This document shows positions 13,530 to 60,125 of a DNA stretch of 64,000 nucleotides, in pieces (position 1 is the first letter of the stretch; every line of letters starts with the position of its first letter). The translations under genes and the position numbers were made by a program. Source of the stretch: Dichotomocladium elegans (taxonomy: Eukaryota; Mucoromycota; Mucoromycetes; Mucorales; Lichtheimiaceae); the NCBI GenBank assembly GCA_025716815.1, contig JAIXMN010000038.1:186001-250000 (forward strand). The letters run 5' to 3'. The notes beneath the pieces are model-generated. The model did not search any database and had not been told where the DNA came from. It worked only from the letters and a program-made list of their open reading frames with translations.

Positions 13530-13815
13530 TCTAAAGAAGATACTAGCAAAAGCTACTGATGATTCTAGAGACATCCTTTTCTAGAAGAGTCAACGTGACA
13601 TGACATTGCTGTGGTGGGGAAGTGATTGTGGAGCAAGTTCCAGAAGATGCCAAGAAGTGCCATGGCATTTTAGCTTCCGAAAGGCACGTGACAAGAGCGA
13701 TGTTTGGGATCACGTGCTTCGAATTGATTGCTTGGGTCAACTGGGATTTGTAGGCTTGAATGTTTGCCTGGATTTGACAGTGTGGAGCCAAAGTTCCGTT
13801 CTTCCATGGTAGACA
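13530..13815 (-). mobile_element. LTR fragment G1
   Basis: The reverse complement matches 60126-60404 (LTR G2) over about 280 bp, including shared CACGTG and CCATGGCA segments. Only the 5' part of the LTR, beginning TGTC on the minus strand, is present; the TATA-containing part is replaced by the AT-rich stretch. It ends right against a partial tRNA-Ile sequence. Confidence 0.65.
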
Positions 13816-13822
13816 AGGTCTC

Positions 13823-13836
13823 ACTCGCTTAGCTCA
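13823..13836 (+). pseudogene. tRNA-Ile 5' fragment at the LINE 1 3' junction
   Basis: The 14 bases equal nucleotides 1-14 of the intact tRNA-Ile at 25576, with one change at the first base, preceded by the same GACAAGGTCTC flank. The match stops exactly where LINE 1 begins. This is the target-site duplication left by LINE integration, not a working tRNA. Confidence 0.8.
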
Positions 13837-14161
13837 ATCAAAAATGTTTATTTTATTTAAGAGGACATCCTGGGGCGAGCAGCTACTGCCATATGCCAGT
13901 CCAATATGAAGCCTGGTGATAGGGATATATATAACTGTGTGGTAGTGAGACTGACCTCGACAAAACCCCCCAAGGGGGAAAAAGGCCGAGCATAAGGGAA
14001 CAACTTAGGAAAAGAAATGTGGGGCATGGAAGCGGGGTAAATATAAATAGGCATATATTCATAGGGGGTCTAAACTACACGAGAACATAGGAATAGAAAG
14101 AAGGACAAATATATCGGCGGGTGTGGGTGTGGTGTGTGGGCGGGAAAGGGAGGGGCACATC

Positions 14162-17100
14162 TCAGTCTCTTGATATCTGGGCCAGTTCTTCCGCCTCGAA
14201 CGTCAACTCCGGATGACTAAGGATGTCGATATCCCTAAGTGTGTTTAGGAGCATAGGCCAGGTCATGCGCCAATGACCGCGAGTGAGTCCTACATCTGAT
14301 CGGGGCAACATGTTGAAGATAAAGTCCAACAAGTGCGTGTCTTGGTCCTTGGTGTCTAGGCGGTTACCAAGGCTCTGCTTGAGCCGTTGTATCATGCCAT
14401 CAAGCAGAGTACACTCAAGGTAATGGTCTCGTTTTGCCTTGCAGAAACCACATCGGCAGTCTTTGGGTGGGAAAGATGGCAACCAGTGCACTCTCCACTT
14501 GACTAACCGATGCCGCTGTCGAGTTGTAGCTGGGAGGTAGAGAATTGGATCCCACATGCGGGTTGGGCGAGCATGGGCCACAGCCAGAAATTTCTCTCGT
14601 TGGACTTGGAGCTCCAGGTCATGGCGGGCCTCGACAACAAAGGCGGCTTCTTCGTCGCGTGGGTGTGGAGGGTCCACGGACAGACTGGTGTAGTCCCGCC
14701 AGAGGGCGGCGCCAGTCGTCAGGGTGCGCCAGTGTGCATCTCTTTCCCCAACTGGGCTTCCCCCGACTTCATGGGGATCGTTAAGCTGGAGAAATGAGCG
14801 TATCACGGCACGTAAAAGGGTGGTCTGAGGTTGTGACATTACGCGGTGGACGAACTTGAATGCCAGAATCGCGGCTCGTAGTGACATGGATGGCAGGTCG
14901 GCAATATGCTTCTGCACGATGGTGGGGATGGGACGGCGAGTAATAACATTCGAGGCCATTCGAATGCAGGCAGTCTGTGCGTCTTCAATAATCTTGGTCT
15001 CTTCAGCATTGAGTGGGGCGATAGCGAGGCCGTATTCTATAACTGGCCTCATGAAAGTGCAGTAGATGCGTAGAGATGGGCCCATCCCAAAACCATACTG
15101 GTGGGCGCCGAGTTTTCGCAGGAGCTGCATGGCGTTCCTGCCTTTACGTGAGGACTGTTCGACCATGGTTTTGATGGCTATCCCATCACCAGAGAAGGGG
15201 ATGCCGAGGTAGGTGAATTGGGTGTTGGTAGGGAGGCGCTGATTGTAAAGTTCGAAGTATGTGGTCCTATCGTTGGTAGGGGCATTAAGGATAGCACACT
15301 TGGCGGGATGCCAACGGAAGTCTAAGTGATTAGAAAATCGCTCTGCTGTGCCCAGCATATCCATGACATCCTCGGGTGAACCAAAGATGGCAATGTCGTT
15401 GGTATATAACAAGGAATTGATTACTTGAATTTCTGCATCCGGACGTGTCGCGGTATTGGTGCTTGCATCAAGTTCCATTAGAGAGGCGCTTGGAACCGTC
15501 TGCAGTAGCAAAGGACGTCGGCTGACCATGTGTAGCATCTTTGGGAGTTGGTCGATGAAAATTGCGTACAGCATAGGACTCAAGATCGATCCTTGTAGGA
15601 CCCCTCTCCGCGGGCATATCCATTGGGATTAGTGGCCTTTGAGAATGACTGCAATTTGGACATTGTCGAATAGGTTTTGCAGCAGAGGGAGCAAACCTGG
15701 CATCACTCAGCCTCTGAGGGCGTCCCAGATAACAGTCCTATCAATGGAGTCATAGGCTGCCTTGATATCCAAGAACGCCACCACTAGTTTCTCCTCATAG
15801 TGTCGTTGATACTGGCGTAAGAGCATGTGCAGATTGAAAGCCTGGTCGAGGGCTCCGCGATGCATGCGAAAGCCGCCTTGAGCAATATCAAGAGCAGGCA
15901 TTTCGGACAACAGCAATGGGAGCAGACAACACTCGAGTATCTTACGAAAGGTACTAGTCAGGCTGATAGGTCAGTAGTTGGCCGCTTCAGAGGGATCACC
16001 CTTCTTGAAGATCGGCAGTACCTGCGCGCTATGCCACGAACTAGGTGTCCAGGACCACCGCCAGCAGAGCCGCAGGAAGGATGAGAGAATTTGGGCGAGT
16101 GGTGTCACAATGGGTTTCAGCATGGCACCAGTAAGATGATCAGGGCCAGGGGCTTTGCGGGGTGCAAGGGCTTTAATGACATTGGCGACTTCTTTGGGAC
16201 TGAAGAGCCACAGGTCAGGTGTAGGCCGAGGGGCAAGAGGCAGAGACCATCGCCCTCTTTGCTCACCCCCAAACACTGTGGATAGGTGAGAGACCATGCC
16301 GGCGGCAGCTTGTTCGGGACCTTGTGGACGAGAGAAGAAGTGGGTGGGCTTCTTATTACTTTTTATCCTCTTGATGACAGTGTTAGCCTCTGACACAGAC
16401 GCCATGGACATAGTCTCACAGTACTGCCGCCACTGGCAATTACGTTTGCGACGAATGGCGCGGCGCAGGTCCTCGCGGGCTAGTTGGTAGTCTTCCCACA
16501 GGGAGGCCCGTTCAAGTGTGCTGGCAGAAGTGAATCGCCATTGGCGGAAGAGGTCCTGACGGTGGTCCGCGAGCTGTTGCAGCTTGGTTGTCCAGAACCA
16601 TTTCCAGTGTTTTGGGCGGATTATGCCCCGTGTGACACTGCTGTTGAGGGCGTTGTAAATGCTGTCCTCGAGCATGCTGCTGATCTGCTCAAGGAGTCCC
16701 TTGTCAGGTGTATCGCGGCAGTCAGCAGCGTCAATTTCGTTGGCGAGTGGGTGGCTCAGACAAAGGAATTCAGCCACGTAGAGATCACGAACGTCGGATT
16801 CAGATAGGCGTTGCAGCTTCCATTGTTGACATGCTGCATTTGCGGGGGACAATTGGAGGAGGCGCGTCAGGGGTGTAAACCGCAGTCGGCAAAGATGATG
16901 GTCTGAATTGAGTGATAGGTCATCCCATATCTTGAGGGCAGGGTTGCCGACGGCCACCGTGGAGGAGACAAAGTAGTCGATTATGCTCGCTTGGTTGTGT
17001 TTTCGAAAGGTAAATTTGCCGCGGGCAAGGCGCTCATCCCAATTGACTAAGTTGTGGGCGGTTAGCCATTGAACGAAGGCGGATGCATGCTCGTTTTCCC

Positions 17101-17557
17101 TGGTGTCGCAGTGTGGTTGCCAAGGCGGGTGTTGAAGTCACCAAACACAAAAGGTATGGTCGTCGATGGGTAAGGAGCGGAGAGTGTGGAGAAATTGTCA
17201 GAAGGGCATGGTGTGTGGGGGAAAATATACACCATGGAAGGTATAGGCTCCCATGGAGAATGATAGTACGAAGCGGTTGCAGTGAGGAAGAAGGATGTGA
17301 ATGTGATAAGGGAGTCCAGGACACACGAGGAGTGACAGCCCGCCGAAGCCCCGTCGTGCGTTTCCATGGATCTGCGCAAAGTTGTGGTATTGTTGCCAAT
17401 GAGTGTGGAGTCTTTGTCCTTCGAGGAGGTAGGTTTCCGTTAATAAAATAAAATCAATGTTATTTGACTTGCACTGACGAACAAGTTCGTCAGGCGAGCG
17501 ATCAATGCCAGAGGCATTGAACATGGCCATGCGGATAGAGGTGGTGTTTTCCGTCAT
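14162..17557 (-). pseudogene. LINE 1 ORF2: APE endonuclease / reverse transcriptase, decayed
   Basis: ORF2 would nick the target and reverse-transcribe the LINE RNA. The ATG overlaps the ORF1 stop (TAATG at 17555-17559). The endonuclease part shows LLTETYL, FGDFNTRLG and LNSDHHLC but needs at least two frame changes between about 17200 and 16960. RT motifs follow (KKGDPSEAANY, DIAQGGF, FLDIKAAYDSIDR). In-frame TGA codons near 15971 and 15707 replace sense codons present in LINE 2. The catalytic YADD is YTND. A C-terminal CxC..C..H..C zinc finger (CRCGFCKAKRDHYLEC) remains. The element is inactive. Every inactivating point change I could check is a C-to-T or G-to-A transition. Confidence 0.85.
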
Positions 17558-19261
17558 TATTGATTATTATTGTCTGCAGCGGTGGAGGGTTGTTCCTCGT
17601 CGACTTCCATGGTTTTCGCAATAGCGAAAAGTTCGTTGTCAGCAGGGGTGGGCAGTTTGCGCGCAGAGGCCACAGGTTTGCGACGCAAAAAGATGTTGAG
17701 GTTGGCATTGCTGATGTGGTGTGGGCCCTGCACACTATTGAAGTGGCGCATGATAGCGGCGCCCAGGTGAGCTTGTGGGAGAGCCAGACAAGCTCGAAGC
17801 ATCTGCTTTTGATAGATGGAGGTGGCGTGGGTTACTTTCTCTGCGTCTGGCAGAGACAGGATTTGGGAGTTGTTGATGGTGGACGCAGCTGTAGGGTCAA
17901 ATGCCGCGATTGGTTCGACGTTGTGTGTCCCGAGGAGTTGTTGAAGTTCCTCGGCGAAGGAACAGTGTACAAGCAAGCCGATCACTCCCTTGCTTGGGAA
18001 CTGGATGTCGATTACACGAGCTTGAGCTACGCCAAGCAGGCGAAGATGACGGCATACCTTGCTGTGTTTGCTTCGACGGTTGCTTTTTAGATATACAAAG
18101 GTGTAACCGGTTGTGTGTTCGGTTTCGCGAAAAGCGTGCGATGCCCAATCCAAGGTTGCGGGTGTGATCTTGGTGGGGGCAGGGGGTTTAGGTTGCTGTT
18201 GCTTTGGTTTTTTTGGCTGCTTTTGCAGACCTTTGCGCGCAACACTTGCAAAGGAAGGTGTGGCAGGTGTGGCGCATGGGGCAATGGGCATGATAGGCCC
18301 CGAGTGAGCATACTTGGATGCTGTGGTTCCCTGGGAGTCGAGTTCCATGGTGTCATTGGGGGGAGTGTTGCTGTTAATTGAGCAGGGAGGTGGGGCCAAC
18401 TTCGCTTGCAATTCGGCGATCTGCAATTTAGCGGCTGCTAACTCCATCTCCAGCTCCTTATTGCGTGTAAGGAGATTGGCGAGCTCCACGACGATTTCTT
18501 TCTGCTTTGCAATCTCCTGATCTTGAGCACGCAGCCAGTGTTCAAACGCAAGCACCCATTCAGGGAGGCGCAAAGGTAGGACGCTGGCGTCGTTGGATGG
18601 CAAAGGAATGGAAGCTGTGGAATCAAGGGGTTTTAAGAATAAAAAGAGACAGAATATGATTCTGTGAGACTCGCCAAAGGATTGTTTTTTATTGAGTGCC
18701 AATAATGGGCCTATTTATAAGAAGTGCTTATCAAAACGGTCACTCTGGAGGCTGGGTGTGGATAATCATCTAGGCGGTCTCCCGGGACAGTGGACCAGTT
18801 AAAAGGTTGATAAAGAAGTTTATCATTTACCCTTGTGATTATAACTGCGTCCTGAGACAGGTCCGGGATATAAATTATGAATCCGGATAGTGCGAGAGTA
18901 ATTATGATAACGGCGCTCGAAGAGTGAAACAAAGTGTTGATGTCCCATATAATCCAGGGACACTGCTGTTAGGTAAGAAAATAGTTGTGGATACGACAGA
19001 AGCAAAGGAGTCACTAGGGAGATTGTCTGGCATGGACTCATCGTTTGCTGACTGAACTCGGTCAATCATTGGTTTCCTGATTGCAGGTGGCATGTTGTTG
19101 CCGATTTCAGGTGAGCAGGATCGGCAGTCATGGGTGTTGGTGACCACTATGCGATGGGCAGGCGACGCTTCATGGGAGCAGTTTCCAGTACGTCGCGGGG
19201 TGGTTGCGGGGGGCATGTTGCGGGGGGTGCTACGCACGTTGCTGACTGGGGTGCGAGGCAT
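17557..19261 (-). pseudogene. LINE 1 ORF1: coiled-coil RNA-binding-like protein, split by a solo LTR
   Basis: ORF1 proteins of LINEs package the RNA. Here a coiled coil (ELEMELAAAKLQIAELQAKL) precedes a basic proline-rich linker and a C-terminal domain shared with LINE 2 (FVYLKSNRRSKHSKVCRHLRLLG). Solo LTR J2 splits the frame at 18616-18998. Deleting the LTR and one 5-bp duplication joins the parts in frame, so the gene was intact when J2 arrived. MITE III sits exactly at the first ATG (19259-19261). Removing it shows the frame was open further upstream to about 19727, without another ATG. Confidence 0.8.
18616..18998 (-). mobile_element. Solo LTR J2 with 5-bp duplication
   Basis: A 383-bp twin of J1 flanked by GAAGC on both sides (18611-18615 and 18999-19003), a clean target-site duplication. 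It has no internal domain, so the full element was lost by LTR-LTR recombination. It interrupts LINE 1 ORF1. Confidence 0.9.
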
Positions 19262-19262
19262 A

Positions 19263-19627
19263 CAGGATTTTCAAGAAGAAATTTGCCACAAATTTTAGTT
19301 GTTCGTATAGACTGTCTAGGTTTTTCGTTTTTTTTCACTTCAAATACGAATACAAATTTTAGTATTTCGTTGCTACCCTTTTGTCAAATTTAAAGGCAAT
19401 AGCAGCAAGAACATGTCAACCAAGGCTATATGTGAGTCTTCCTTCTCCTCCTTTTACACCAGAATAATTTTGGGAGGCCAACCATTTATGTTTCATTCTA
19501 ATTTCAAAGGAAGAAGAGAAACGAAATACTAAAATTTGTATTCGAATTTGAAGCAAAAAAAACGAAAAACCTAGATGGTCTATACGAACAACTAAAATTT
19601 GTGGCAAAGTTCTTCTTGAAAATCCTG
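19263..19627. mobile_element. MITE III in LINE 1 ORF1
   Basis: A 365-bp MITE with complete CAGGATTTTCAAGAAG termini and TA on each side (19261-19262 and 19628-19629). The arms are inverted repeats of about 110 bp. Removing 367 bp restores the ORF1 frame across the site. Confidence 0.85.
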
Positions 19628-19727
19628 TACTTGGGAGGTTGTCATGATCCAACCCGACGTGCCTGCCACAACACACGCAGCAACGATCAACACTGCGATT
19701 CCAATACGCACCAAATACCCACTCCAC

Positions 19728-20365
19728 CTGTTCTTTACATACATACTCCTTCTTCTCTTATTAAGTACATTATCTATACCTTACTCACGATCCAGAACAC
19801 AATATATATATCCACCCTATCCTTAGTCAAAATAAAATCAATCAGTTATCTTGTTTCTTCGTTTCCATACGAATCCATCTGGTTCACCTCTTGTCTTGGC
19901 CTCCGTGCTTCTTGTCCCTTCCATCCTTGTATCGTTCCAATCCAGCTCGATACTTCTTCCTTCCTCTTGGCCTCCGTGCTTCTGTCTTCTTTCTCTTGTT
20001 CTGTCTTCTTGTTCTGTCTTGTCTTGTTGGAAAGCGCTTAGCACCTTCCTGCCCTTTCTTCCATCTTCCTCCTATTCCAACCCAATCCCAGTAAAACCTC
20101 ACCAAAACCTTTACAGAGGTCTTCGCAACTAGCACATGTTTTCTTTGGAACAGGTATTTTCTATGTTCTGGGCACGTAACATGAGTTTTTCTGCTTTGAG
20201 GAGGATTATTCGATTGCCTCGAGGTGATCGGCGGGTGCTTCTTGGTTTAAAGGGGTGTTGTTCAGGAGTTCGGTAATTTCGGGTGAATGTATTTTCTGAG
20301 CCAGTAGGGGTAGTGAAAATTTTTTGCAAAAAAAAGTATATAAAGGGCTCGTTTTCGCCGTGCGC
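19728..20365. other. LINE 1 5' region, non-coding
   Basis: C/T-rich sequence with a direct repeat of TTGGCCTCCGTGCTTCT about 70 bp apart (near 19896 and 19967). It contains a TATA-like run near 19803 and AATAAA near 19831, so it might include an unrecognised LTR. Close to its end is GTATATAAAG (about 20337), also present at the 5' end of LINE 2 (about 25528). No gene is supported. Confidence 0.35.
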
Positions 20366-20383
20366 GATGCTCGACAAGGTCTC

Positions 20384-20397
20384 GCTCGCTTAGCTCA
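20384..20397 (+). pseudogene. tRNA-Ile 5' fragment at the LINE 2 3' junction
   Basis: These are exactly nucleotides 1-14 of the intact tRNA-Ile. Together with the upstream 18 bases they form a perfect 32-bp duplication (20366-20397 equals 25558-25589) around LINE 2. The break falls within the A box, between TAGCTCA and GTTGG. Confidence 0.88.
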
Positions 20398-20667
20398 ATT
20401 GAAAAGTTATTTATTGGTTTTGGAGCATGGTTGTGGCCGGCGCCTATGGGCATGTGGCTGCTCCGTGACAGTACAAAAGGATGTCCGATAAAAATTAAAG
20501 TTACAATGCCGATCAGAATGGTGCATTAAAAAACCCCCAAAAGAGGAAAAAGTCAACCACCTGTCAAAAAAAAAAAGAATATAGACCCAAAATGGGAGAA
20601 AATGAAAATGAGAAAAAAGAGCATGTGATGCTAATACCAGACACCAAGAGAAAGGCCTCAGGTGGAG

Positions 20668-23600
20668 TTAGTCAGCCAGCTCGACGCGGGCAGCTTCAAG
20701 TGCCGCTTGAAGAGCTTCAGCCATGGGAGCAGAGGGATCGTCATCGTCTTCGAAATCATCAGCATCGGGGTGGCTAAGAAAGTCGACGCGGCGCAGATAG
20801 TGCAGCAAGGCTGGCCAGGCGAGCTGCCAGCGCCCGCTCTGGAGCTTGTCTGCTGATCGTGGCAGGCTGTTGATGATGTGGTCAACGGGGTGGAGCGCAT
20901 TTGAGACCGGTACAAAGCCAAAGGCGCGTTTGAGGGCCAATGCGGCCTGCTCCACCAGAGGACACTCCGTGTAGTGCGTACGCGTGGCAGCCTCAGCCCC
21001 GCAGCGGCAGTTCTTGAGCGGGAAGGAGGGAAGCCAATGCAGACGCCAGTTCACCAGGCGATGCCGATCACGTGAGGTGGCGGGGAGAAACAGCACCGGG
21101 TCAATCTGGCGCATAGGTCGTAGGCGGGCGACAGCTGGTTTCTGGGCGCGACGCTTCTCCAGCTCAAGATCGCGGTGGTGTAGCACTGCTTCACGGACTG
21201 GATATTGAGGTGGCTCATCTGACAAAACGAGGCCACGCCAGGTGGTCCAAAGAGGGTTGGCACGCGAGATTTTATGCCACGGCTCATTGGTCTGCTGGTG
21301 TTACAGGAAGGACAAAATGACCGCACGCAGCATTGTCGGAGTCGGTAATGCATTGCCGCGCGTCACAAACTTGACCTGCAGGATTCGCATTCGCAATGTC
21401 ATTGACGGGAGATCGGCCATCACCATTGGCACAATCGTTGGCAATCGGCGGGCAGTTGGCTGGTTCATTGCAAGCTTGACGCAGCTTTCTTGCGCCTTTT
21501 GGAGGAGGGCGAGCTGGTCGTATGTTAAGGGGGCTATGGCAAGGCCATACTCGAGAATGGGGCGAACAAAGGTACGATACGTACGCAGTCCTGCCCACAG
21601 ACCGAGACCATAATGATGCACCCCCATATGTCGGAACGTAGCCATCACACCTGTGGCCTTGCTAATGCGGTCTTGTACCAGTTGGTCGCGGTCAATGCCT
21701 TCTTTGCTGAAAGGGATGCCAAGGTATTTGAATGCTTGCACCACTGGAAGAGGCCGCGAGTACAACGTAAAAATGTCACTAGCTGGAGCATTCAGTACTG
21801 CGCATTTTTCAGGGTTCCACCGGTATCCTAGCTGGCGCGAGTGTCGCTCTGCCATGCCCAACATGTGGCACATGTCCTCAGCAGTACCAAAGAGGGCAAC
21901 GTCGTCGGCGTAGAGCAGTGCGTTGACTGGCATGATGTGGTTGTCGATCCGAGGTGGGGGCTGGCCGCCACCAGGGCTTCGATAGTAGCGGAGACGGTTG
22001 CTTGCTTCTTCAGAAACCCCCTCGAGGCTTGTTGTGCGAAGGAGGAGGGGCCGGCGCAGGTGTGCATTAACTCGGAGGGCCGTCGGGAGCGTGTCGATGA
22101 AAATGGTGTAGAGCAGAGGGCTAAGGATCGAGCCTTGCAGTACGCCTTTTGCGGGCCGGATGAAGTGCGATTGGTAGTTTTTCAGGATGACAGCCAGCTG
22201 AACATCCTCAAACAAATGACGACAGAGCCGAAAGGACACAGGTGGGAGGTGCCCACGCAGGTGTTCCCAGATGACCTGGCGATCCACAGAGTCATACGCC
22301 GCTTTGATGTCGAGGAACGCAACCACTGGCCATTCACCATGCTCCTGCTGAAATCGACGCATGAGAATGTACAGCGAGAAGGCTTGGTCCAAGGCACCGC
22401 GGTTCTCCCTAAAGCCACCTTGTGCCATATCCAATGCAGGTATGTGATCGAGCAAGTGCGGCAGCAGGCATCGCTCGAGTATCTTGCGAAAGAGGCTGGT
22501 GAGACTGATCGGACGATAGTTACTCGGCTGTGAGGGATCTCCTTTCTTGTAGATGGGGACTACTTGGGCGGTCCGCCATCCAGGAGGGGTCCACGACCAG
22601 CACCAGCACAGGGTAAACAACGCCTCCAGGAGTTTGGACAGAGGGATGGCGATGGGCTTAAGCATTGCCCCAGTGATGTGATCGCTTCCGGGGGCTTTCC
22701 GCGACGGCATTTGCTTGATGATAGCACGAATGTCTGAGGCATTAAAGGGCGATATGCCAAGCAGGGATGGGTCGATGGCTGCAGGAGGGGTGGAGTCTAC
22801 CAAACGATTTCCGCCAAAAACTTGCTCGAGATGAGTTGCCATGCTGGAGGCAGCGTGCAGTGGACCATCAGGATGGGAGAGGGTGGTGGGGGCAGTACGG
22901 CTGCGGCGCATGCGCTTGAGGACGGCGTTGACCTCCCCTTGTGTTCGCTGTTCCATGGCTTTGCAAAATTGCTTCCACTGTTGGCGGCGTGTCAATCTTA
23001 GTTCCCTTCCAAAGGCTTTCTTCGTGGCCTGGAACCGATTCCACAGCATGGAGCGATTGACTAGGTCACCAGGGGCGTTTCGCCAGCGGCGGTATTCTTC
23101 TTCACGTCGGTCTGCGAGACGCTGGAGCTCGTCATTCCAGAACCATTTCCAGTGACGAGGTCGCATCTTACCACGCGTGACGCTCGCATCCAAGGCGGAC
23201 TGGATGCTGGCGGTGATCCGGTCACCGAAATCCTCTATTAGGTGACGATGGCAGATATGAAACTCGTCGGTCAGATGTGAGAGAATCTCGTCAAGCAGAG
23301 GATCTGTTGCGATGGTGAACTTGTCGATGAAAAGAGCCATGATATCCGGGTCGTTGAGTCGTTGTAGCCGCCAATGTTGCCGGGGTGCTGTAGGTTCTGG
23401 AAGTGTTGTTATAGGCGTGACTGGCCAGAACGAGAAGACACACAGGTGGTGGTCTGAGTTGAGAGAGACATCGCTGCAGATCACCAGGGATGGATCTCTT
23501 ACAACTAACCGGTTTGAGATGAACAGGTCGATGATGCTCGTGCCCAGGGCAGATGCAAATGTGGGCTGGCCATAGGTGAGTGAACCATTCCAGATATGCA

Positions 23601-24087
23601 AGCCATGCTGTATCACCCAGTCGCGAAGAGTAGGACCGCGGTCGTTCTGGTCGTGGTCACCGAGTGAGCGGAGCCGAGTGTTGAGTTCACCAAGGACGAT
23701 GGTGCGGTCGTCGATGGTGAGGCTGTTGAGAAGGTCACGGATTGTAAGAAGATCGAGTGATGGCGGTAAGTAGAGGGAGTGCACTGTATAAGGCCCCATG
23801 GTGAAGGAGAGGATATAGGGCGAGGTGATGGCATGTGGGTGGATATGGAAAGGCAAGTCAGGGCGGGCCAAGAGTGAGACACCGCCAAAACCGCGAGTGC
23901 CATTGCGCGGCCTGCGCGCATAGTTGTGGGTTTGCGTCCAATGTGTGTTGAGTCGACCTTGCATAAGGTATGTTTCTGTGAGGATTAAAATGTCGACATT
24001 CATGTTGGTGCAATGTCGAACCACCTCGTCAGGCGACTGGTTGATGCCAGCCGCGTTTAATAGACCGATGCAAAGTCGATCTATCAT
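20668..24087 (-). pseudogene. LINE 2 ORF2: endonuclease / reverse transcriptase with one stop
   Basis: An 1140-codon frame broken by a single in-frame TAA (21301-21303). Domains in order are the APE endonuclease (LNAAGINQSPDE, ILTETYL, LNSDHHLC), RT (KKGDPSQPSNYRPISL, FLDIKAAYDSVDR, LQGSILSPLLY, catalytic LLYADDVALFG, YLGIPFS) and a C-terminal CCHC-type finger (CRCGAEAATRTHYTEC). The ATG overlaps the ORF1 stop as ATGA. The catalytic YADD is intact and the stop lies after the RT domain, so a shortened enzyme lacking the zinc finger could still be made. The stop is most simply a CAA-to-TAA change. Confidence 0.88.
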
Positions 24088-25421
24088 TGATTGTCGTGCA
24101 TTTCGTCGTCGTCCACATCTCGGCTAATGCCGAGAATCTTTTCAGCTTCTTCCACAGATGGGATTGGCCGCGGGGCAGGTCGTACTGGGTGTTGACGGAC
24201 CGCCTGGAATTGCGTTAGTATGGTAGCATCCAAATGGTGCGGGTCGTCCACGTCAGTATTCACAAAATGTTGCAAGATCGAGAAACCCAGATGTGCCTTG
24301 GGCATTCGAAGACAGGCTCGAAGCATCCGTTGTTGATAGAGCTCGTGGGCTTTTGCGACACGTTCCTCTGCTGTAAATCCGGCATACGCCGGCTGAATGA
24401 TGGTGTTGGCTGCGATGGGATCAAAATCGATGGTGGTGATCTTGGCCTCTGCGAGTTTCGCCTTAAGTTCGCACACAAATGATGCGTGTACCAGCAAACT
24501 GGTAACACTGCGAACTGGGAAGTGTACATCAATGATGCGCCCTTGAGGGACACCCAGAATTGAGAGTGCCCGTCGGATCTCACTGTGTTGTGTGCGGCGT
24601 GGTGATGCAAAGGACAGCATAGCATAGCCTCGGTTCTCCGGAGATGCTGCGGCTGCAAAGCAGCGGGTTGCCCAGGTGAGCATGCCTTCAGTAGGCTGAT
24701 CGGTGCGCTGCCGACGGCGCTGGGCGTGAGAGGGGGGTGTGTTTTTCCGTGCTACTGAGGCCCATGTGAGCTGGCTAGCAGTGGATGTTGCGTTCACTGG
24801 ACGATGGCGTGAATCCATGGTGGAAGATCCCAGCACTGCGACTGCATCCATGAATCGTATCACGGCGGGTGTGCCTTCAGGCTGGTTGCTCTCGACCTGC
24901 ATCGGATTTTCTTCCGTCTGTTGTAGTGAGTTACGTAAGGTACTCAACTCCTTCCGCAGTGCTGCAGTAGATGCCCTTTCCTGGGCGAGGTCTGCCTTGA
25001 GCTGGTCCCGTTCAGCAAGTAGCTCCTGGAGTTGGTTCATCATCGTGTCATGTGTGGATAATAGCTTCGCCTGCTCAGAGAGCTGATGTTGCACACTCTG
25101 TACCCAATTAAATAAATTAATGGAGTGTGGGAGTTCTACCATGGCTTCCGCCTGGTTTTCGTTCTTGTGCACTTCCTCCATCAAGTTCGCAAATGTCTGC
25201 TTGGTTCGCTCTGCTGACTGCGAAGTTGGCAGACTGTTGCTGATCGGTGTGGCTGACGTTGACACTATCTCGGGATCAACCGCGTCTTGGCGCATAGGCG
25301 AAGGTTGCATCATTCGCTTTTTCACCGGCTGTGGTGGGCCTGGGATCTTTGTTGCATGTGGCACAAGTGAATGCCTACGCTTTGCACGTGTGTTGGGAGC
25401 CGTGGTGCTGCTGTCAGGCAC
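24084..25421 (-). CDS. LINE 2 ORF1 protein
   Basis: A 445-codon frame from the first possible GTG. The first ATG is at 25313 (codon 37), and the frame is open upstream without any ATG. It has a basic N terminus, a long coiled coil at residues ~110-170 (LSEQAKLLSTHDTMMNQLQ...RKELSTLRN) likely to drive trimerisation, and a C-terminal domain shared with LINE 1 (ALSILGVPQGRIIDVHFP). It probably binds LINE RNA. No zinc knuckle is seen. The stop overlaps the ORF2 start, which suggests coupled translation. Confidence 0.8.
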   Translation of the reverse strand: MPDSSTTAPNTRAKRRHSLVPHATKIPGPPQPVKKRMMQPSPMRQDAVDPEIVSTSATPISNSLPTSQSAERTKQTFANLMEEVHKNENQAEAMVELPHSINLFNWVQSVQHQLSEQAKLLSTHDTMMNQLQELLAERDQLKADLAQERASTAALRKELSTLRNSLQQTEENPMQVESNQPEGTPAVIRFMDAVAVLGSSTMDSRHRPVNATSTASQLTWASVARKNTPPSHAQRRRQRTDQPTEGMLTWATRCFAAAASPENRGYAMLSFASPRRTQHSEIRRALSILGVPQGRIIDVHFPVRSVTSLLVHASFVCELKAKLAEAKITTIDFDPIAANTIIQPAYAGFTAEERVAKAHELYQQRMLRACLRMPKAHLGFSILQHFVNTDVDDPHHLDATILTQFQAVRQHPVRPAPRPIPSVEEAEKILGISRDVDDDEMHDNQ

Positions 25422-25575
25422 GTTAGAAGTGTCGGTGGTGGTTGCGGGAGTCGTAATGGAGTTTGTAATGGTGGCAGTTGTTGGGGCGAAAATTTCGACG
25501 GGTCGGAGAAAGTGTTTTACCGAAAAAGTATATAAAGACCTCGAATTCGCCGCGCTCGATGCTCGACAAGGTCTC

Positions 25576-25649
25576 GCTCGCTTAGCTCAGTTGGTTAGAG
25601 CGTGGTGCTAATAACGCCAAGGTCACAGGTTCGACCCCTGTAGTGAGCA
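25576..25649 (+). tRNA. tRNA-Ile (anticodon AAU)
   Basis: A complete 74-nt cloverleaf: acceptor GCTCGCT/AGTGAGC with A as discriminator, D arm GCTC...GAGC, anticodon stem TGGTG/CGCCA with loop CTAATAA (AAT at 25610-25612), and T arm ACAGG TTCGACC CCTGT. A and B boxes are intact and no intron is present. It lies directly behind LINE 2, whose insertion duplicated its first 14 bases, and 80 bp before Gypsy A. It looks functional and is the re-created target of two LINE insertions. Confidence 0.95.
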
Positions 25650-25728
25650 TATTAATATCATTTTGATGTTGTGTCGACTATGTGTCGTAGCCAGATTTGT
25701 CGTAGCAACATATCAGATCTTCTTGATG

Positions 25729-26010
25729 TGTCGTCTTTTTATCAACTTGGATACCACTGAGAAGAGACGACGTCCACTGAGAGAATAACCACGAAGAGAT
25801 AACCACGGAGAGATAGAACCACACAGATAGTCGTCCGGACAATATATGATGATGTTTTATTACGATAAATGTCCCATTATTTATACTGTATTGACTTGTA
25901 AGAAATGAGTGCAATGCTGTCAAGATTGCTACTGATGACTCATGTTTAGCAACCATTGTCATTCGGACTTTGTCTAAAAAGTGCTATGCTCCGCGGTAAT
26001 GGTCATGTAG
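25729..26010 (-). repeat. 3' LTR of Gypsy A, main part
   Basis: Matches the 5' LTR at 42040-42362 with moderate divergence. The remaining 38 bp are at 31396-31433 beyond LINE 3; together they make 320 bp against 323. Confidence 0.85.
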
Positions 26011-26251
26011 ACAAAACAGTTTATTTTGAAAGAGAAGGCGGTATGGAACGTGTGCTCAATAAAGCGGTCGCTCTCGCCAGATCGACAAGGTGGCTGCGGC
26101 ATGAAAAACCCAGAGTGGCTGGGAAAAATGAGGGGGCAAGAAGAAAAAAGAAAAGAGAAAGAGATAAAAATGGGAACAATGGGGTCGACAAAAGTGGAGA
26201 AGAAGAAACTATCTAAAGGGGGAGTGGGAGTGACAACGAGAAAAGAGAGGG

Positions 26252-29200
26252 TTAGGGATCAAGAACGAAATCATCCAGAATTGCTTCGGTTGCATGAACA
26301 GGGACAGGACGCTCGAGCCACCGGAGAAGAGATCCGCCGAGGTCGGGGTCTTGCGAGGCGGAGAAATCCTCATCAAGGTGACACGCCATGTCGACCTCTA
26401 GGAGGATCTGGCACACCACTGGCCAGGTGCGTTGCCAGTATTTGATGCGGGAGGATGAGGTGATCTCAGAGCATGGCAGCTGGTTGAGGACCAATGAGAG
26501 CGGATCGCGATGATCATCATCATTGGCGACCCTCAACCGAGCGTGCATGTTGAGGCAGAAAATGAGGTGACGGCGGCTTGTGTGATCATGCTTACACCAG
26601 CATGGTTTAGGGCGGCCAGGGAGCCAGCCCATACGCCAGCGGATGCAGCGGCTGCGTTCCTTGTTCGTCATTGGCAAGTACATGACCGGGTCAATGCCAA
26701 GGCGTGGACGGCATGCGCTTAGGAGGATGGCGCGGGAGGAAGCGAGCTGGTCGGCGAGGCGGTCTTGCAAACAGCTGCGGATGGCACCTTTCAAGTCCAC
26801 TCTTGAGGCTTGATGCCTAGGACGAGAAAGGGCCACCCACACCGAAGAGCGATGCAACTTCGGCCAAAGGTGTCTGGGCTGCTTGATGGAAGGGAGGAGT
26901 GCGGAAAGGAGGGTGTCGTCAGGCAAGTTGTATGCACGGTGCACAAATTTGGCCTGGAGGATGGCAACTCGGTCGACCATGTGGGGAAGGCGGGTGAGGT
27001 GGCGGAAGACGGCAGTGGAGGCGGTCTTGTGTCCCCCAAATATCATGCGAAGGCATTGATCTTGGGCGCGCTCAAGAGTTTTGAGGTCTTGGCGGGTGAG
27101 GTTGATCAGCGCGAGGCCGTATTCCATCTTTGGCCGTATAAATTGCTGGTACATACGGGTGGCGAGGAGGCGAGGGAAGCCATACGGGCTGACGCCAATG
27201 GCGTGCAGCATCCGCATGCTCGTGAGGGCGGCAGTGGTATTGAGGTGAAGGAGGGCTTGGTGATCGATCTGGCCAGCAGATGAAAAGGGAATCCCAAGGT
27301 ACTTGAAGGAGGGCGATCGCGGGAGGTCGGTGCCATACAAGCATAGGGATGGGCGTTGGGTTGGGGCGTGGGCAGAGTCGAACAGCACCGCGCACTTGGC
27401 GGGATTCCAGCGATACCCGAGCTGAATGCTGTGTCGCTCGCATGCAGACAGAAGAGCAGGCATGGTAGACCATGATCCAATGAGGACCACGTCATCAGCG
27501 TAGAGCAGGCAATTAATCCGTTCGCCACGCACCAAGAAGTTGGGGGGCTCCTGAAAATCGGCATATGCGTCGTCGGGAGGAATATCCTGTTCTGCAACAC
27601 GAAGCAATCCTGGGAGGGAATTGATGTATATGGAGTAGAGGAAGGGGGAGAGAACAGAGCCTTGTAGCACACCTGTGACTGGTTCGAAGCGCCGTGACAC
27701 AGTTCCTGTCAATAAAATCTCAATAGAAACATCATTAAACATGTGCTGTAAAAGAGTGAGGAGGGCAGGGGAGGCGTATGGTTCTAACTCATTCCAGACT
27801 ACAGAACGGTCGACTGTGTCATAGGCGGACTTAATGTCGAGGAAGGCTAGGACGGGAGGCGTGCCGTGGGTGGTGGTGTGCATGGTGGATAGCTCGTGCA
27901 GGCAGAGGGCTTGGTCGAGTGTGCTGCGGTGGTGTCTAAACCCACCCTGGGCGATATCCAAGATAGGATATGCAGCCTCAAGGGGGTTCATGAGGCAAAG
28001 CTCGAGCAGTTTTCGGAGCACCGAAGTCAAGCAGATTGGTCGGAAGTTGGCGGGGTCTGTTGTGGGTCCCTTCTTGTAAACGGGGATGGCTTGAGCCAGA
28101 CGCCAAGCAGCTGGAGTTGTACCCCATCGCCAACAAAGTTCAAAGAACAGTGTCAACGTGGGGACAAGGGCACCAGACAGAGGGACGAGCATCTCGGCGC
28201 GCAGATGGTCGGCACCAGGGGCTTTGCGGGGAGGTAGGCGGCCAATAGCGTCCTCGACAACAGGAATCGTGAACGGGCAATCGTCTGTAAATGGTGGAGT
28301 CACGGCCGCGGGCAAAAGATCTTCATCAATCGGCGGACCGAGAAGGTGACCAGCATAGACCTGACCAAGATGGTCGGCCATCCGATCGGCAGCCACCTGC
28401 GGACCGCGAGGATCCACAAAGGTGGGATTGAGCCGTCGGTTACGTCTGATTTTGGAGATGGTCGCGGTAGCTTTGCTGAAATCACCAGCAGCTAACCGGT
28501 CACAGAACTCGCGCCACGTCTGACGACGACGCTGCTGGATGGCGCGACGGGCAAGGGCAGCAGCTTCTTGATAGGCAACCCATCGCGAGAGCTTACTAAC
28601 ACCATCCCGAGCACGACGCCATTGGCGATAGCATTTCTCGCGGCGGTCGATGGCTTCTTCGAGAGCAGGGGACCAGAACCACTTGCAGGTGCGGCGGGGA
28701 GGCGGGCGGGATCCAAGGCTGCTATCCAGGGCTTGATAGATCGATTCGCACAGTTGGTCATGGAGTCGATCAAAATCGGGACGCGATTGATCTTCTCTAA
28801 CTAGAGCCGTTAGAGAATCAAATAGGGGCTGGTTGAGCTCAGTGAAGAGCTGCACATACTGTGCAGTCTTCTCTGGGTCAGCCAGCTTACTTAATTTCCA
28901 TAGGCGTCTAGTGTGCTTATTCGGCGGGGTTGGCTGGGTGGCGGGCGCAGCGAAGGTGAGATGCACCATCTTGTGATCGGAGCCGAGGGACAGATCGTCC
29001 CTGACTGTTAGTTGCGGGTCGACAAGAGGTGCAGAGCTCAGGAACCAGTCGATGATGCTAGTTCCCCGGAGTCGGACGTATGTGGGCATACCAAAGGCAA
29101 GGGAGGCATTCCAATGGTAGAGGCCGGTAGCTTGAATCCATTCGAGAAAGAGGGTGCCGCGTCGGGTGAGTACATGGTCACCAACAAATCGGCCAATGCG

Positions 29201-29623
29201 GGCATTGAAGTCGCCGCAGAAGATGGTGTTGGATGTGTTGGGCCATGTGAGTGGTAGGTTGGCAAGGACGTCGAGGGCTTCGTTATCTGGGAGGGAGGGC
29301 GGGAGGTAGAGACAATGGATGAGAGTATCACAAAAAAGACAGGAGAGTACATAAGGTGAGTCGGAAGGGATGGAAGTTACTTGGTAGGGGCAGTCGGGAT
29401 TTACTAAAAGCGAAATACCCATGCTGCCTACGAATGCGTTTTCAAGGCGGCGACCATAGACATGGTGCTGTTGCCAGGATGTGGGATATGAATGAGGGGA
29501 AAGGAGCCAAGTTTCGGTGATAAAGAGAAGGGATGTAGAAGGAGTGTATGTTAGGATGTTTTCAATAAGATGCCGTTGTAAGCCATTGGCATTCCAAATA
29601 GTAATAGTTATGTTTTTTAACAT
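26252..29623 (-). CDS. LINE 3 ORF2: APE endonuclease / reverse transcriptase
   Basis: A 1123-aa intact protein. The N-terminal APE endonuclease (residues ~1-230) shows FITETWLL, FCGDFNARIG and LGSDHKMVH. RT (~450-780) has KKGPTTDPANFRPI, FLDIKSAYDTVDR, GVLQGSVLSPFLYS, catalytic LLYADDVVLIG and FKYLGIPFS. The C terminus carries a CxC...H...C finger (CWCKHDHTSRRHLIFC). There is no RNase H domain. It nicks target DNA and primes reverse transcription there. It starts with ATG two bases after the ORF1 stop (TAATTATG). No disabling mutation is seen. I do not assign a LINE clade. Confidence 0.9.
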   Translation of the reverse strand: MLKNITITIWNANGLQRHLIENILTYTPSTSLLFITETWLLSPHSYPTSWQQHHVYGRRLENAFVGSMGISLLVNPDCPYQVTSIPSDSPYVLSCLFCDTLIHCLYLPPSLPDNEALDVLANLPLTWPNTSNTIFCGDFNARIGRFVGDHVLTRRGTLFLEWIQATGLYHWNASLAFGMPTYVRLRGTSIIDWFLSSAPLVDPQLTVRDDLSLGSDHKMVHLTFAAPATQPTPPNKHTRRLWKLSKLADPEKTAQYVQLFTELNQPLFDSLTALVREDQSRPDFDRLHDQLCESIYQALDSSLGSRPPPRRTCKWFWSPALEEAIDRREKCYRQWRRARDGVSKLSRWVAYQEAAALARRAIQQRRRQTWREFCDRLAAGDFSKATATISKIRRNRRLNPTFVDPRGPQVAADRMADHLGQVYAGHLLGPPIDEDLLPAAVTPPFTDDCPFTIPVVEDAIGRLPPRKAPGADHLRAEMLVPLSGALVPTLTLFFELCWRWGTTPAAWRLAQAIPVYKKGPTTDPANFRPICLTSVLRKLLELCLMNPLEAAYPILDIAQGGFRHHRSTLDQALCLHELSTMHTTTHGTPPVLAFLDIKSAYDTVDRSVVWNELEPYASPALLTLLQHMFNDVSIEILLTGTVSRRFEPVTGVLQGSVLSPFLYSIYINSLPGLLRVAEQDIPPDDAYADFQEPPNFLVRGERINCLLYADDVVLIGSWSTMPALLSACERHSIQLGYRWNPAKCAVLFDSAHAPTQRPSLCLYGTDLPRSPSFKYLGIPFSSAGQIDHQALLHLNTTAALTSMRMLHAIGVSPYGFPRLLATRMYQQFIRPKMEYGLALINLTRQDLKTLERAQDQCLRMIFGGHKTASTAVFRHLTRLPHMVDRVAILQAKFVHRAYNLPDDTLLSALLPSIKQPRHLWPKLHRSSVWVALSRPRHQASRVDLKGAIRSCLQDRLADQLASSRAILLSACRPRLGIDPVMYLPMTNKERSRCIRWRMGWLPGRPKPCWCKHDHTSRRHLIFCLNMHARLRVANDDDHRDPLSLVLNQLPCSEITSSSRIKYWQRTWPVVCQILLEVDMACHLDEDFSASQDPDLGGSLLRWLERPVPVHATEAILDDFVLDP

Positions 29624-29625
29624 AA

Positions 29626-31278
29626 TTATTGACTATCGGCGTTGGGGGTGGTGCGAGATGAAGATGAGCCAGAGACAGACATGAGTTCGTCGTCAATGGG
29701 TGTGGAGCTGTTTTGTGTGCCCTCGACGTCAACGTTCATCGGGGCTTCGGTGACAAAAGGATTGGCGGTGGTCGCGGCAGTGGTGCGTTTTGTGTTGGGG
29801 GCGGACAGGATTTCTTGAAGATCTACATGGGTAAACCATCCGTTAGCAGTGAAGGCTCTGGCAACGGCGTACTTAACTGGCGCGCGAATGAAATCGACGG
29901 CCTTAAGAAGCCGTTGCTTGTGTAGTTCGGCGGCCTTTTCGCGACGCTCCTCCTCAGAGAGTGCCGCGAATTTGGGGTCACGGAGGTGCTTTGGATCACG
30001 AGGATCAAAGTCCTCTATCACCGGGATCCGGTGCTTGGCCAGTAATGTGGTAAACTCCTTCACATAGTCATTATGAAGGAGGATAGCCACTACCTGTCGA
30101 TCGGGGTAATGCACATCTAAAATCCGTGCATTGTCAAAGCCGAGTTTGCGCAGACGGGTACGGAGCTCCTTGGTCGGCAGGCGGAATTTGCTCGGAATGT
30201 ATATATATTTGAAGCCTTGCTCGCCCGAAGCAAAGCTAAATACACGCGAGATGGCAGCAGCGCGGCGGGGGGACAGGATCCGTTTGTTCTTCGTTGTGTG
30301 TGGGGACTTGGCCTTTTGCACACGATCCGCCCAGGTGAGTGGCGCAGGGGCAGAGGTAGCTTCGGTGGTGGGTGCGGCGGTGGCGTACCGAGATGCCGCG
30401 GTGCCAGTCGGTGCATCCAAGGGGTTTTTGACGAGCATGTCGTCATTGTCATTGGCCTGAGCGTCCAGTTTAAGCTGCAGTGCAGCTATCGTAGCCTCCG
30501 CATTGGCGAGTTGGTTCTTCAACTGCTGGTTCTCAGCAAGCAGGGATTCAAGCTGGTCCACCCGACGGCGGGTGGTATTAAGCTCCTCCATGATTTTTTG
30601 CATGAAGTCGGGGAGGGCTTCATGGTGCTCAAAGATGAGCGGGGCCGAGTTTGTAGCCGAGGTCTCCAAGGTGGATTCGATGGTATCCATCGCGTTGCTG
30701 GGAGGTGGGAGGGCAGGCGCGGGGGCCGGAATCGACTCCAACGAGGTGCAGGCTGGGGCAGACGTGGCATGGGCTGCAAGCAGCTTCTCCATAGCCTGGA
30801 ACGTGTAGGTCGTGTTGCACTTACACTTGTACTGCGGGCGCGGGGGAGTGGTTTTGCTGCTGCCGTTCTTCCGTATCCCATTGGGGAAGCGGCACACGGG
30901 GCAGACGAGTTCCTGGCGTACTTTTCGGAAAAGGGCCTCGTGTTCTACAACCATAGTTGCAGCGGGAGAAAAATTTTTGGCTTTTTGCACAGCCGTTGCA
31001 GTTACTTTTTCTTTTGACGCAGCCCCCATTTCAAAGGTAAACTGGAACTCGGTCTGGGACTGCAATGTCGGGGATCGAGTAGCCGAGACGCGGTTCTTCT
31101 TAATCTCGGGGAGATGTGAAGGGCGGGCTGAGGTGGTCGACAAACGGCGTTTACTGATTCCGCTGGTGATGGGGATGCGCGATGTTCGGGAGTTGTGCAA
31201 AGTCGAAGGGGCGGCCGATTGGACTTGGGATGTTCCTTCTGGTGATCGCGATGGGGATTCCTGCGCTATGGGGTGCAC
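29626..31278 (-). CDS. LINE 3 ORF1 protein with zinc-ribbon-like motif
   Basis: 550 codons from a GTG; the first ATG is at 31029 (codon 84), and the frame is open without ATG to the very first base of the element. It carries a CPVC...CKC cysteine cluster (about residues 121-155) that could bind zinc, a coiled coil (~225-270, LNTTRRRVDQLESLLAENQQ) and a C-terminal domain like that of the LINE 1/2 ORF1s (KLGFDNARILDVHYP). Probably an RNA-packaging protein. The lack of an early ATG suggests initiation at 31029 or at a non-AUG codon. Confidence 0.75.
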   Translation of the reverse strand: MHPIAQESPSRSPEGTSQVQSAAPSTLHNSRTSRIPITSGISKRRLSTTSARPSHLPEIKKNRVSATRSPTLQSQTEFQFTFEMGAASKEKVTATAVQKAKNFSPAATMVVEHEALFRKVRQELVCPVCRFPNGIRKNGSSKTTPPRPQYKCKCNTTYTFQAMEKLLAAHATSAPACTSLESIPAPAPALPPPSNAMDTIESTLETSATNSAPLIFEHHEALPDFMQKIMEELNTTRRRVDQLESLLAENQQLKNQLANAEATIAALQLKLDAQANDNDDMLVKNPLDAPTGTAASRYATAAPTTEATSAPAPLTWADRVQKAKSPHTTKNKRILSPRRAAAISRVFSFASGEQGFKYIYIPSKFRLPTKELRTRLRKLGFDNARILDVHYPDRQVVAILLHNDYVKEFTTLLAKHRIPVIEDFDPRDPKHLRDPKFAALSEEERREKAAELHKQRLLKAVDFIRAPVKYAVARAFTANGWFTHVDLQEILSAPNTKRTTAATTANPFVTEAPMNVDVEGTQNSSTPIDDELMSVSGSSSSRTTPNADSQ

Positions 31279-31395
31279 GTTTGGAGGTGTTGGTGGTGGT
31301 GTTTGAGATGTTATTGTTGCTGACGTCAGGGGTAAACTATTAGCCGCCGTAAAAAAGTGTACGGCGAGTGAAAGAGAAGCGTAATGGTCATGTAG

Positions 31396-59989: not shown

Positions 59990-60042
59990 CACCGACACAA
60001 ACGGCCAGGAAAAATCCAGTATGGCATAATAGAAAGCTTAAA

Positions 60043-60113: not shown

Positions 60114-60125
60114 TGGTGGTGCTTA

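Follow-up and report, generated by a model that had tools for sequence, protein, structure and literature searches.

How a tRNA-Ile gene that has received two LINEs at the same nucleotide of its A box comes to stand intact beside them is the question raised by this locus, which lies in a window (the whole stretch of DNA analysed, 64,000 nucleotides) of the Dichotomocladium elegans genome. An 11-nt leader, GACAAGGTCTC (13812..13822, + strand), precedes a left half-site comprising tRNA-Ile nucleotides 1–14 (13823..13836, + strand), which carries a single change, G to A at nucleotide 1, and adjoins the 3' end of LINE 1 (family F1; 13837..20383, − strand). Another repeat lies in front of this leader, and its relatives elsewhere stop, as judged by eye, about 10–13 nt upstream of tRNA starts. 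LINE 1 spans 6,547 bp, about 1.25 kb more than the 5.30 kb typical of F1 elements, and its ORF2 match contains five in-frame stops. A further half-site of nucleotides 1–14 (20384..20397, + strand) links its 5' end to the 3' end of LINE 2 (family F2; 20398..25575, − strand; 5,178 bp), which has both termini. The ORF2 of LINE 2 (20668..24123, − strand), interrupted by one stop near 21301, holds an endonuclease (PF14529, PF03372) and a reverse transcriptase (PF00078) in a 940-aa piece, and the ORF1 open frame (24084..25575, − strand) matched no family in a Pfam search at E 0.01. The rebuilt tRNA-Ile(AAT) gene follows at 25576..25649 (+ strand), with nucleotides 1–14 at 25576–25589. The original prediction of two LINEs in series, both at A14^15, with an intact tRNA gene regenerated downstream and one mismatch at the LINE 1 junction, is borne out by these junctions.

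The identity predicted between 20366–20397 and 25558–25589 was likewise confirmed and extends to 33 bp (20365–20397 against the right-hand copy of LINE 2), ending after tRNA-Ile nucleotide 14. Such an identity of 32–33 bp in the window had suggested that each LINE duplicates about 32 bp of its target, 18 bp of them natural 5' flank, with tRNA-Ile as the sole target. Barring mis-assembly, this is refuted by three single insertions with the left leaders cgatcaacaaatca (C79, Thr), ataaaaacatcaaa (C44, Thr) and aaaaatcaccatca (C41, Phe), which are all unlike their right leader, CTCGACAAGGTCTC; the leader is therefore carried by the LINE and not duplicated. Moreover, the same 18 bp stand before nucleotide 1 of nine isotypes, in contrast to the varied leaders seen in 41 other tRNA upstream regions, and we regard the longer duplication as highly improbable. 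On the sequence evidence, the target duplication is 14 bp, corresponding to tRNA nucleotides 1–14 with nothing upstream included, and the 33-bp identity is this duplication plus the LINE's own 5' terminus (18–19 bp), common to LINE 1 and LINE 2.

The same junction recurs throughout the 39.4-Mb assembly. The 13-mer of tRNA-Ile nucleotides 2–14 occurs 12 times (reversed control, 2), nine times in tRNA-Ile genes and three times as a half-site followed by a LINE 3' end. Among all 37 LINE 3' ends matched by the searches in four families, 36 adjoin a half-site of tRNA nucleotides 1–14, placing the junction far beyond chance, and the 3' end is fixed within each family. Isotypes of the half-sites were Glu (10), Asn (10), Ile, Lys, Thr and Tyr (3 each), Asp (2), Met (1) and Phe (1), where the ten Asn cases were assigned by hand, as the script missed them because ARAGORN begins tRNA-Asn one base early. 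The match to the tRNA was exact for 32 half-sites, with one change in three and three changes in one. These counts are lower bounds and other copies may be missed, since only the best candidates were scored (for ORF2, the best 49 of 211). The stretches first examined at C101, C2, C59, C1 and C46 corresponded to ORF2 interior, and in the C31 subgroup a 14–15 bp repeat was not recognised as tRNA, the examined sequence stopping short of the train's intact target.

The 37th 3' end (C28) belongs to a fragment of 96 bp that lies outside tRNA sequence, between copies of a 14-bp duplication. It bears on the possibility that the 14 tRNA letters are a tRNA-derived tail of the LINE 3' end rather than target sequence, which would account for their presence on 36 of 37 copies. 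This off-target copy has no tRNA letters, and F1 copies bear Ile, Tyr, Lys, Thr or Phe halves, each fitting the adjacent tRNA. None of the 37 copies was distant from tRNA genes yet ended in the same 14 letters, an observation that such a tail would require and that had been named beforehand as refuting insertion into the tRNA, and we consider this explanation even less probable than the 32-bp duplication. Thus, the expectation that related 3' ends join nucleotide 14 held genome-wide, but not its restriction to tRNA-Ile: as read from these junctions, the target is many tRNA isotypes, nine for the main group and Val for a second group.

At the opposite terminus, a LINE 5'-end pattern gave 63 matches, of which 58 were true LINE ends and five were unrelated on reading. 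Intact tRNA sequence followed 29 of these ends, a half-site 26, and another element inserted in the leader the remaining three. The junction to the tRNA (n = 55) lay exactly at nucleotide 1 in 49 cases, at +1 in four, and at +7 and −2 in one each. For 25 of the 29 ends followed by intact tRNA sequence, the tRNA gene was read over its full length, and the acceptor stem pairs 7/7 in 24 of them and 6/7 in one. For the 26 LINEs with both ends found, the tRNA isotype was the same on the two sides in 23, and 18 were exact over 14 nt (shuffled mean 3.6, maximum 11 in 20,000). Taken together, the junctions show that the LINE 3' end is joined to the tRNA strand after nucleotide 14, and that nucleotides 1–14 are repeated at the LINE 5' end, continuous with the remaining tRNA, so that a complete tRNA gene adjoins the LINE.

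Additional LINEs, whether from one family or from different families, sit at the same nucleotide as head-to-tail trains, and the predicted reuse of the site is evident from such trains at many tRNA loci. In the three LINEs with unlike isotypes at their two sides (Tyr|Ile, Met|Asn and Asp|Glu), recombination between LINEs must also have shaped the loci. These three, along with the copies with identical 3' ends in the C61 and C58 trains, would fit a scenario in which a LINE and its half-site were multiplied into trains through segmental duplication or unequal recombination rather than by repeated insertion. The elements joined in series in the window, however, belong to different families (LINE 1 and LINE 2 ORF2 are 47% identical), and different families are likewise joined at C13:1066787 (F3 then F2) and C68 (F2 then F3), which makes it unlikely that trains arose in this way instead of by repeated insertion.

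A second LINE group, with a different 5' end, is represented in the window by LINE 3 (26010..31380, − strand), which here lies off target, inside an LTR-like repeat. It is flanked by the 14-bp target duplication GTAATGGTCATGTA (left copy 25996..26009, right copy 31381..31394, both + strand), or 15 bp if the next G is counted. Its ORF2 matched PF14529 and PF00078 in the Pfam search, and no Pfam family scored above its cut-off for the open frame upstream. Most other copies of this group are located at tRNA-Val nucleotide 14, with tRNA-Val junctions in 13 of 19 pattern matches and the same insertion behaviour as the main group; 0–4 extra nucleotides precede tRNA nucleotide 1, and there is no obvious TATA. 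A TRE3-like assignment of LINE 3, aimed downstream of the tRNA, was dropped in view of these relatives and of its own flanks, a 14–15 bp duplication in another repeat.

In the main group, the junctions show that the sequence upstream of tRNA nucleotide 1 is now entirely LINE, namely a 55-nt block that terminates in ACAAGGTCTC on the tRNA strand. The block of LINE 1 (20329..20383, − strand) contains GTATATAAAG on the + strand, and that of LINE 2 (25521..25575, − strand) now provides the rebuilt tRNA-Ile gene with its leader and upstream region. It is 81–89% identical between F1, F2/F3 and F4, compared with only 38–54% for nucleotides 61–200. F2 and F3 are also 99% identical over nucleotides 61–200, with ORF2 proteins at only ~60–65%, indicating that families can exchange 5' ends; the sameness of the block may thus partly reflect such exchange rather than constraint.

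The composition of the block suggests, with less certainty, that it serves Pol III for the rebuilt tRNA gene. Of the 41 other regions upstream of tRNA genes, 31 have a CAA motif at −14 to −4 (mean 8.0 and maximum 16 in 500 shuffles), and in the block this motif sits at −9. The block's TATA-like motif lies at −47 from tRNA nucleotide 1, about 15 bp farther out than the commonest position in those 41 regions, roughly −33 to −25, which weakens its reading as a Pol III TATA. This offset, the different 5' end of the second LINE group and the block's position at the 5' terminus of the LINE's RNA strand would agree with a function for the LINE itself, as its own promoter or in RNA packaging or 5' junction annealing, its place upstream of the tRNA being incidental. 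Besides the shared CAA motif, two results argue against it: the block showed no RNA fold beyond shuffles in three tested (z 0.50, −0.94 and 0.64), with an Rfam search over 13500–32000 matching tRNA only, and other repeats stop, by eye, 9–13 nt upstream both of ordinary tRNA genes and in LINE-borne leaders. We consider a LINE-serving block possible, though on balance doubtful. The fold and Rfam results also led us to reject an R2-like 5' ribozyme.

LINE 2 and LINE 3 combine an AP-like endonuclease and a reverse transcriptase in ORF2 with an upstream open frame, as in APE-type LINEs, and the AP-like endonuclease argues against the RLE type. Fixed 3' ends and duplications of 14 bp at tRNA sites and C28, and of 14–15 bp at LINE 3, carry the signature of target-primed reverse transcription. 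Among solved structures, L1 ORF2p and R2-type proteins score alike. The APE-type, site-specific R1 of insect 28S rDNA shares the 14-bp target duplication, but leaves the 28S gene destroyed, with no new flank to replace the old one. With the prokaryotic integrases that act on tRNA genes, the mobile element similarly brings a piece keeping the tRNA gene whole, but there site-specific recombination restores the 3' part, with no reverse transcription and 5' duplication. Searching by tblastn yielded no relatives in viral contigs, and prokaryote genome contigs gave three distant matches (25–26% identity). At the protein level, relatives of ORF2 were seen in Lichtheimia, Circinella and other Mucorales.

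According to the excerpts consulted, Dictyostelium TRE5/TRE3 and NLTR-A/NLTR-B resemble these LINEs in being APE-type and associated, in a compact genome, with numerous tRNA genes (PMC5911963, PMC5006619). TRE5, whose ORF1 protein binds TFIIIB (PMC5911963, PMC5006619), shares the opposite orientation to the tRNA but inserts 40–54 bp upstream (PMC5911963), whereas the LINEs described here join nucleotide 14 with their 3' end and nucleotide 1 with their 5' end. NLTR-A inserts 2–6 bp upstream and NLTR elements carry RNase H (PMC5911963, PMC5006619), in contrast to a 5' end at nucleotide 1 in 49 of 55 cases (0–4 nt away in the second group) and to ORF2 sequences of LINE 2 and LINE 3 that match no RNase H family at E 0.01. 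The same excerpts describe neither a tRNA half-site nor gene rebuilding for TRE or NLTR. The original view of known tRNA-linked LINEs as inserting outside the gene fits these elements, but is incomplete, as the RLE-type NeSL-1_TV (Pro), LIN15_SM (Arg) and LIN25_SM (Glu) lie inside tRNA genes (PMC4640811). They share a specific tRNA target but belong to the restriction-like endonuclease lineage with one isotype each, and the excerpt of PMC4640811 makes no mention of gene rebuilding. Several lineages of Dada DNA transposons insert at tRNA nucleotides 8–13, also in the A box and in various isotypes, and their flanks may likewise stem from different tRNA genes (PMC8869645, PMC3706591, in part). 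They differ in using a DDE transposase and a 6–7 bp duplication instead of endonuclease, reverse transcriptase and 14 bp, and so short a duplication would be unable to rebuild the gene. A literature search, with subscription journals mostly outside its scope, found no title or abstract on A-box LINEs rebuilding tRNA genes.

We therefore consider it very probable that these are APE-type LINEs that cut into the A box at A14^15, leave nucleotides 1–14 duplicated and provide the tRNA with new upstream sequence, and that trains form as the rebuilt gene is used again. The ORF2 endonuclease would first nick the tRNA strand 3' of A14; the LINE RNA would then be copied by target-primed reverse transcription, and the second strand would be cut 14 bp off, where the tRNA sequence begins, whereupon the rebuilt tRNA gene would become a target again. 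Less certainly, the 55-nt block may be kept for giving a Pol III start site and leader in place of the host flank displaced by 5 kb; through this replacement, insertion might cost little and the target might not be exhausted. A broader proposal, to which we give slightly under an even chance, is that the LINE carries, on its antisense strand, a reserve start region and leader for Pol III, which with the 14-bp duplication would leave the host with a functional tRNA gene of whichever isotype was hit and re-create the target. At least two LINE groups with unlike 5' ends would self-heal so, and LINE-less tRNA genes with a ACAAGGTCTC leader would be scars of past insertions.

The tolerance of LINEs aimed at multicopy genes is usually put down to the breaking of one copy among many. 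The junctions described here show another route, in which the gene is restored by the 14-bp duplication together with the 5' terminus of the element itself, and this restoration would explain how LINEs fill tRNA loci in a compact genome. They offer a natural example of a transferable tRNA upstream region, as well as a group of APE-type endonucleases whose short target is common to nine tRNA isotypes. Finally, the poorly understood second-strand cut becomes testable, as its predicted position is nucleotide 1 of the tRNA.

The predicted arrangement of two LINEs in series followed by an intact tRNA-Ile was confirmed on the plus strand of the window. A half-site (13823–13836, plus), comprising tRNA nucleotides 1–14 cut off within the A box from the rest of the tRNA, precedes LINE 1 (13837–20383, minus) and carries one change, in agreement with the single mismatch proposed for this junction; a further half-site (20384–20397, plus), LINE 2 (20398–25575, minus) and the intact tRNA-Ile(AAT), starting at 25576 (25576–25649, plus), follow. 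As both LINEs lie on the minus strand, their 3′ ends point to the left and their 5′ ends to the tRNA. Sequence comparison recovered the expected 32-bp match between 20366–20397 and 25558–25589, with the full identity amounting to 33 bp. The ORF2 sequences of LINE 1 and LINE 2 are 47% identical, and since the two belong to different families (F1 and F2 of the main group's F1–F4), the pair was made by serial insertion and not by duplication of one unit. Among named sequences, the best relatives of LINE 2 ORF2 showed 58% identity over 96% in Lichtheimia ramosa, 52% over 58% in L. corymbifera and 44% over 65% in Circinella minor, pointing to a probable Mucorales host.

Using one 3′-terminal sequence each of F1–F4 as queries against the whole assembly (39.4 Mb, 122 contigs), we obtained at least 11, 8, 6 and 12 matches, respectively, and inspected every match listed. 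With 36 of the 37 LINE 3′ ends found (at least 37 in the assembly) adjoining tRNA nucleotides 1–14, the proposed genome-wide junction at nucleotide 14 held, but not its restriction to tRNA-Ile, as nine isotypes were hit: Glu (10), Asn (10), Ile, Lys, Thr and Tyr (3 each), Asp (2), Met and Phe (1 each). The Asn half-sites were assigned by comparison with intact Asn genes, ARAGORN starting tRNA-Asn one base early, and those of Asp by eye. The half-site was exact in 32 cases, had one change in three and three changes in one. The remaining 3′ end (C28:146730) is a 96-bp fragment in non-tRNA DNA flanked by a 14-bp duplication and, judging from these flanks, is an off-target, 5′-truncated insertion with the same stagger as at tRNA sites. 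On the tRNA strand the 3′ ends of the four families start with A/G-T-T/C, one decayed copy having ACT (L068–L077, L118–L154); this start, close to tRNA nucleotides 15–17, may help priming or register.

Both ends were located within 7.5 kb for 26 LINEs, 23 of which have the same isotype on each side. The two halves, with the right one taken past 1 and 7 extra nucleotides at C71 and C45, are exact over 14 nt in 18 of the 26 (shuffled mean 3.6, maximum 11 in 20,000 shuffles). The three differing pairs (Tyr|Ile, Met|Asn and Asp|Glu) are best explained by recombination between LINEs; full-length LINEs with halves of differing isotypes lie at C95:17043, C13:99554 and C21:9011, a pattern that exchange between LINEs seated at separate tRNA loci would produce. 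Paired LINEs measure 5,178–5,306 bp in 21 cases, the others being 2,640, 3,554, 4,386, 5,577 and 6,547 bp long. Among the 11 unpaired 3′ ends, five reach a contig end (C112, C13, C21, C35, C78), one is the off-target fragment, one (C55:24693) seems joined to tRNA-Tyr via another repeat, and the others lie at C58, C61, C65 and C77. No 5′-truncated copy at a tRNA was shown, which is only suggestive, as pairing requires a found 5′ end. The succession of LINE 5′ end, half-site and LINE 3′ end occurs 26 times; successive copies at C61 and C58 have identical 3′ ends, and recombination may contribute to these trains.

To delineate the 5′ side, the assembly was searched for the terminal 20 nt of the LINE 5′ end, allowing up to three mismatches, which yielded 63 places (one for the reversed control), of which 58 are LINE ends and five, all with three mismatches, proved on reading to be unrelated DNA. 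What comes after the LINE end is an intact tRNA gene in 29 cases, a half-site in 26 and another repeat inserted within the leader in 3. At 49 of the 55 ends at tRNA sequence, the LINE adjoins nucleotide 1 exactly; one extra nucleotide is present at C56, C69, C71 and C76, seven at C45, and the leader is two nucleotides shorter at C60:134488. The whole tRNA gene was covered in 25 of the 29 intact cases (only part in C69, C76, C79:1648606 and C81), and their acceptor stems pair at 7/7 positions in 24 and at 6/7 in one, so that nucleotides 1–7 derive from the tRNA hit and not from the LINE. The original prediction had extended the duplication over 18 bp of 5′ flank. This was not borne out by three single insertions, where left and right leaders differ: cgatcaacaaatca and CTCGACAAGGTCTC at C79 (Thr), ataaaaacatcaaa and CTCGACAAGGTCTC at C44 (Thr), and aaaaatcaccatca and CTCGACAAGGTCTC at C41 (Phe). 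Hence, the duplication corresponds to tRNA nucleotides 1–14, and LINE sequence makes up the region upstream of the rebuilt gene. Read in this manner, the 32–33 bp identity in the window is a 14 bp duplication plus 18–19 bp of 5′ end common to LINE 1 and LINE 2. Leaders were diverse among 41 other tRNA upstream regions, taken from 40 stretches chosen as not LINE-linked from 59 Rfam hits and including L094, by eye resembling a decayed LINE 5′ end, and L086 on the small, possibly organellar contig C12.

The carried 5′ block (LINE nucleotides 1–55) is 81–89% identical among F1, F2/F3 and F4, compared with 38–54% for nucleotides 61–200. F2 and F3 are 99% identical over nucleotides 61–200, with ORF2 proteins only about 60–65% identical and differing 3′ ends (L066, window 25316–25575), indicating that 5′ ends are able to move between families; this pattern is a sign of putatively chimeric LINEs, and such exchange may account for part of the sameness of the block. 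The block showed no folding beyond shuffled sequences and no match to any Rfam family. Read along the tRNA strand, the block includes GTATATAAAG and terminates in ACAAGGTCTC. Of the 41 other upstream regions, 31 have a CAA starting at −14 to −4, against a mean of 8.0 and a maximum of 16 in 500 shuffles; in four windows further upstream, 4 to 10 of the 41 have one. The LINE-borne CAA lies at −9. The TATA-like motif lies at −47, ~15 bp farther from the tRNA than such motifs most often are in natural regions (−33 to −25), and this speaks against a simple TATA reading.

By eye, several other repeat families stop 9–13 nt upstream of ordinary tRNA genes, and within LINE-borne leaders they stop at this same distance. 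At C85, the LINE 5′ end GATGCTCGACAA is followed by a 1,555-bp repeat (TGACACG...CGTGTCA; 24534–26088; L055, with L008) inserted at the CAA of the leader, then ACAAGGTCTCT and tRNA-Ile; the repeat has a longest open frame of 118 aa and an apparent 4-bp ACAA duplication, and the same left junction recurs at C21 (L161) and C116 (L160). Ty3 aims at Pol III start sites (PMC5911963). If these repeats do so too, the LINE-borne leader would be seen as a Pol III start. In the window, one repeat is present in opposite orientations at 13500–13811, ending 11 nt upstream of the left half-site of LINE 1, and at 60126–60400, ending 11 nt upstream of tRNA-Cys (60041–60114, minus); elsewhere, related ends are seen by eye 10–13 nt ahead of genes for tRNA-Arg, -Lys, -Ile and -Tyr. 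This family looks as if aimed at Pol III start sites, like Ty3.

LINE 3 (26010–31380; 25996–31394 with its target duplications), belonging to a second group, has a 14-bp (or 15-bp) duplication and lies within an LTR-like repeat. This host repeat is located downstream of tRNA-Ile, and an identical repeat end, CTACGACA, sits next to tRNA-Ile at C95 (L029). The relatives of LINE 3 have a 5′ end unlike that of the main group, giving 19 pattern matches (control 1), of which all except C117:16353 were read. At 13 of the 19, tRNA-Val nucleotides 1–14 (AAC or CAC by eye) follow within 0–4 nt, as seven half-sites and six genes intact as far as read; the Rfam tRNA model reached its cut-off in five of these six, the sixth, on an incomplete stretch (L170), scoring 24.8. 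The other matches are LINE 3 itself, one on C1 13 nt upstream of a tRNA reading as Pro, two that seem to meet other repeats, and one on C57 with no tRNA after it. At a further copy (C101), the adjoining half is Val-like, its two sides differing by two changes. Rebuilding via the ~14 bp duplication is thus common to both groups, whereas the 55-nt block is not. Two distant subgroups were also seen: a tandem at C31 (L173, L174) whose 3′ ends carry GGAGGCACATGGTGG, a repeat of 14–15 bp in which no tRNA was recognized, and for which no intact target was found at the stretches read, and L177 (C1, about 2418914), joined to GGTTTCGTGATGTA, which by eye resembles tRNA-Val nucleotides 1–14.

RLE-type elements include LINEs that are aimed at tRNA genes (PMC4640811), and Dada transposons share A-box insertion (PMC8869645, PMC3706591); in the open literature searched, no report was found of LINEs that leave behind a whole tRNA gene whose upstream region comes from the element. 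What is new is the combination of one target nucleotide, many isotypes, duplication of nucleotides 1–14, a carried upstream block and serial reuse.
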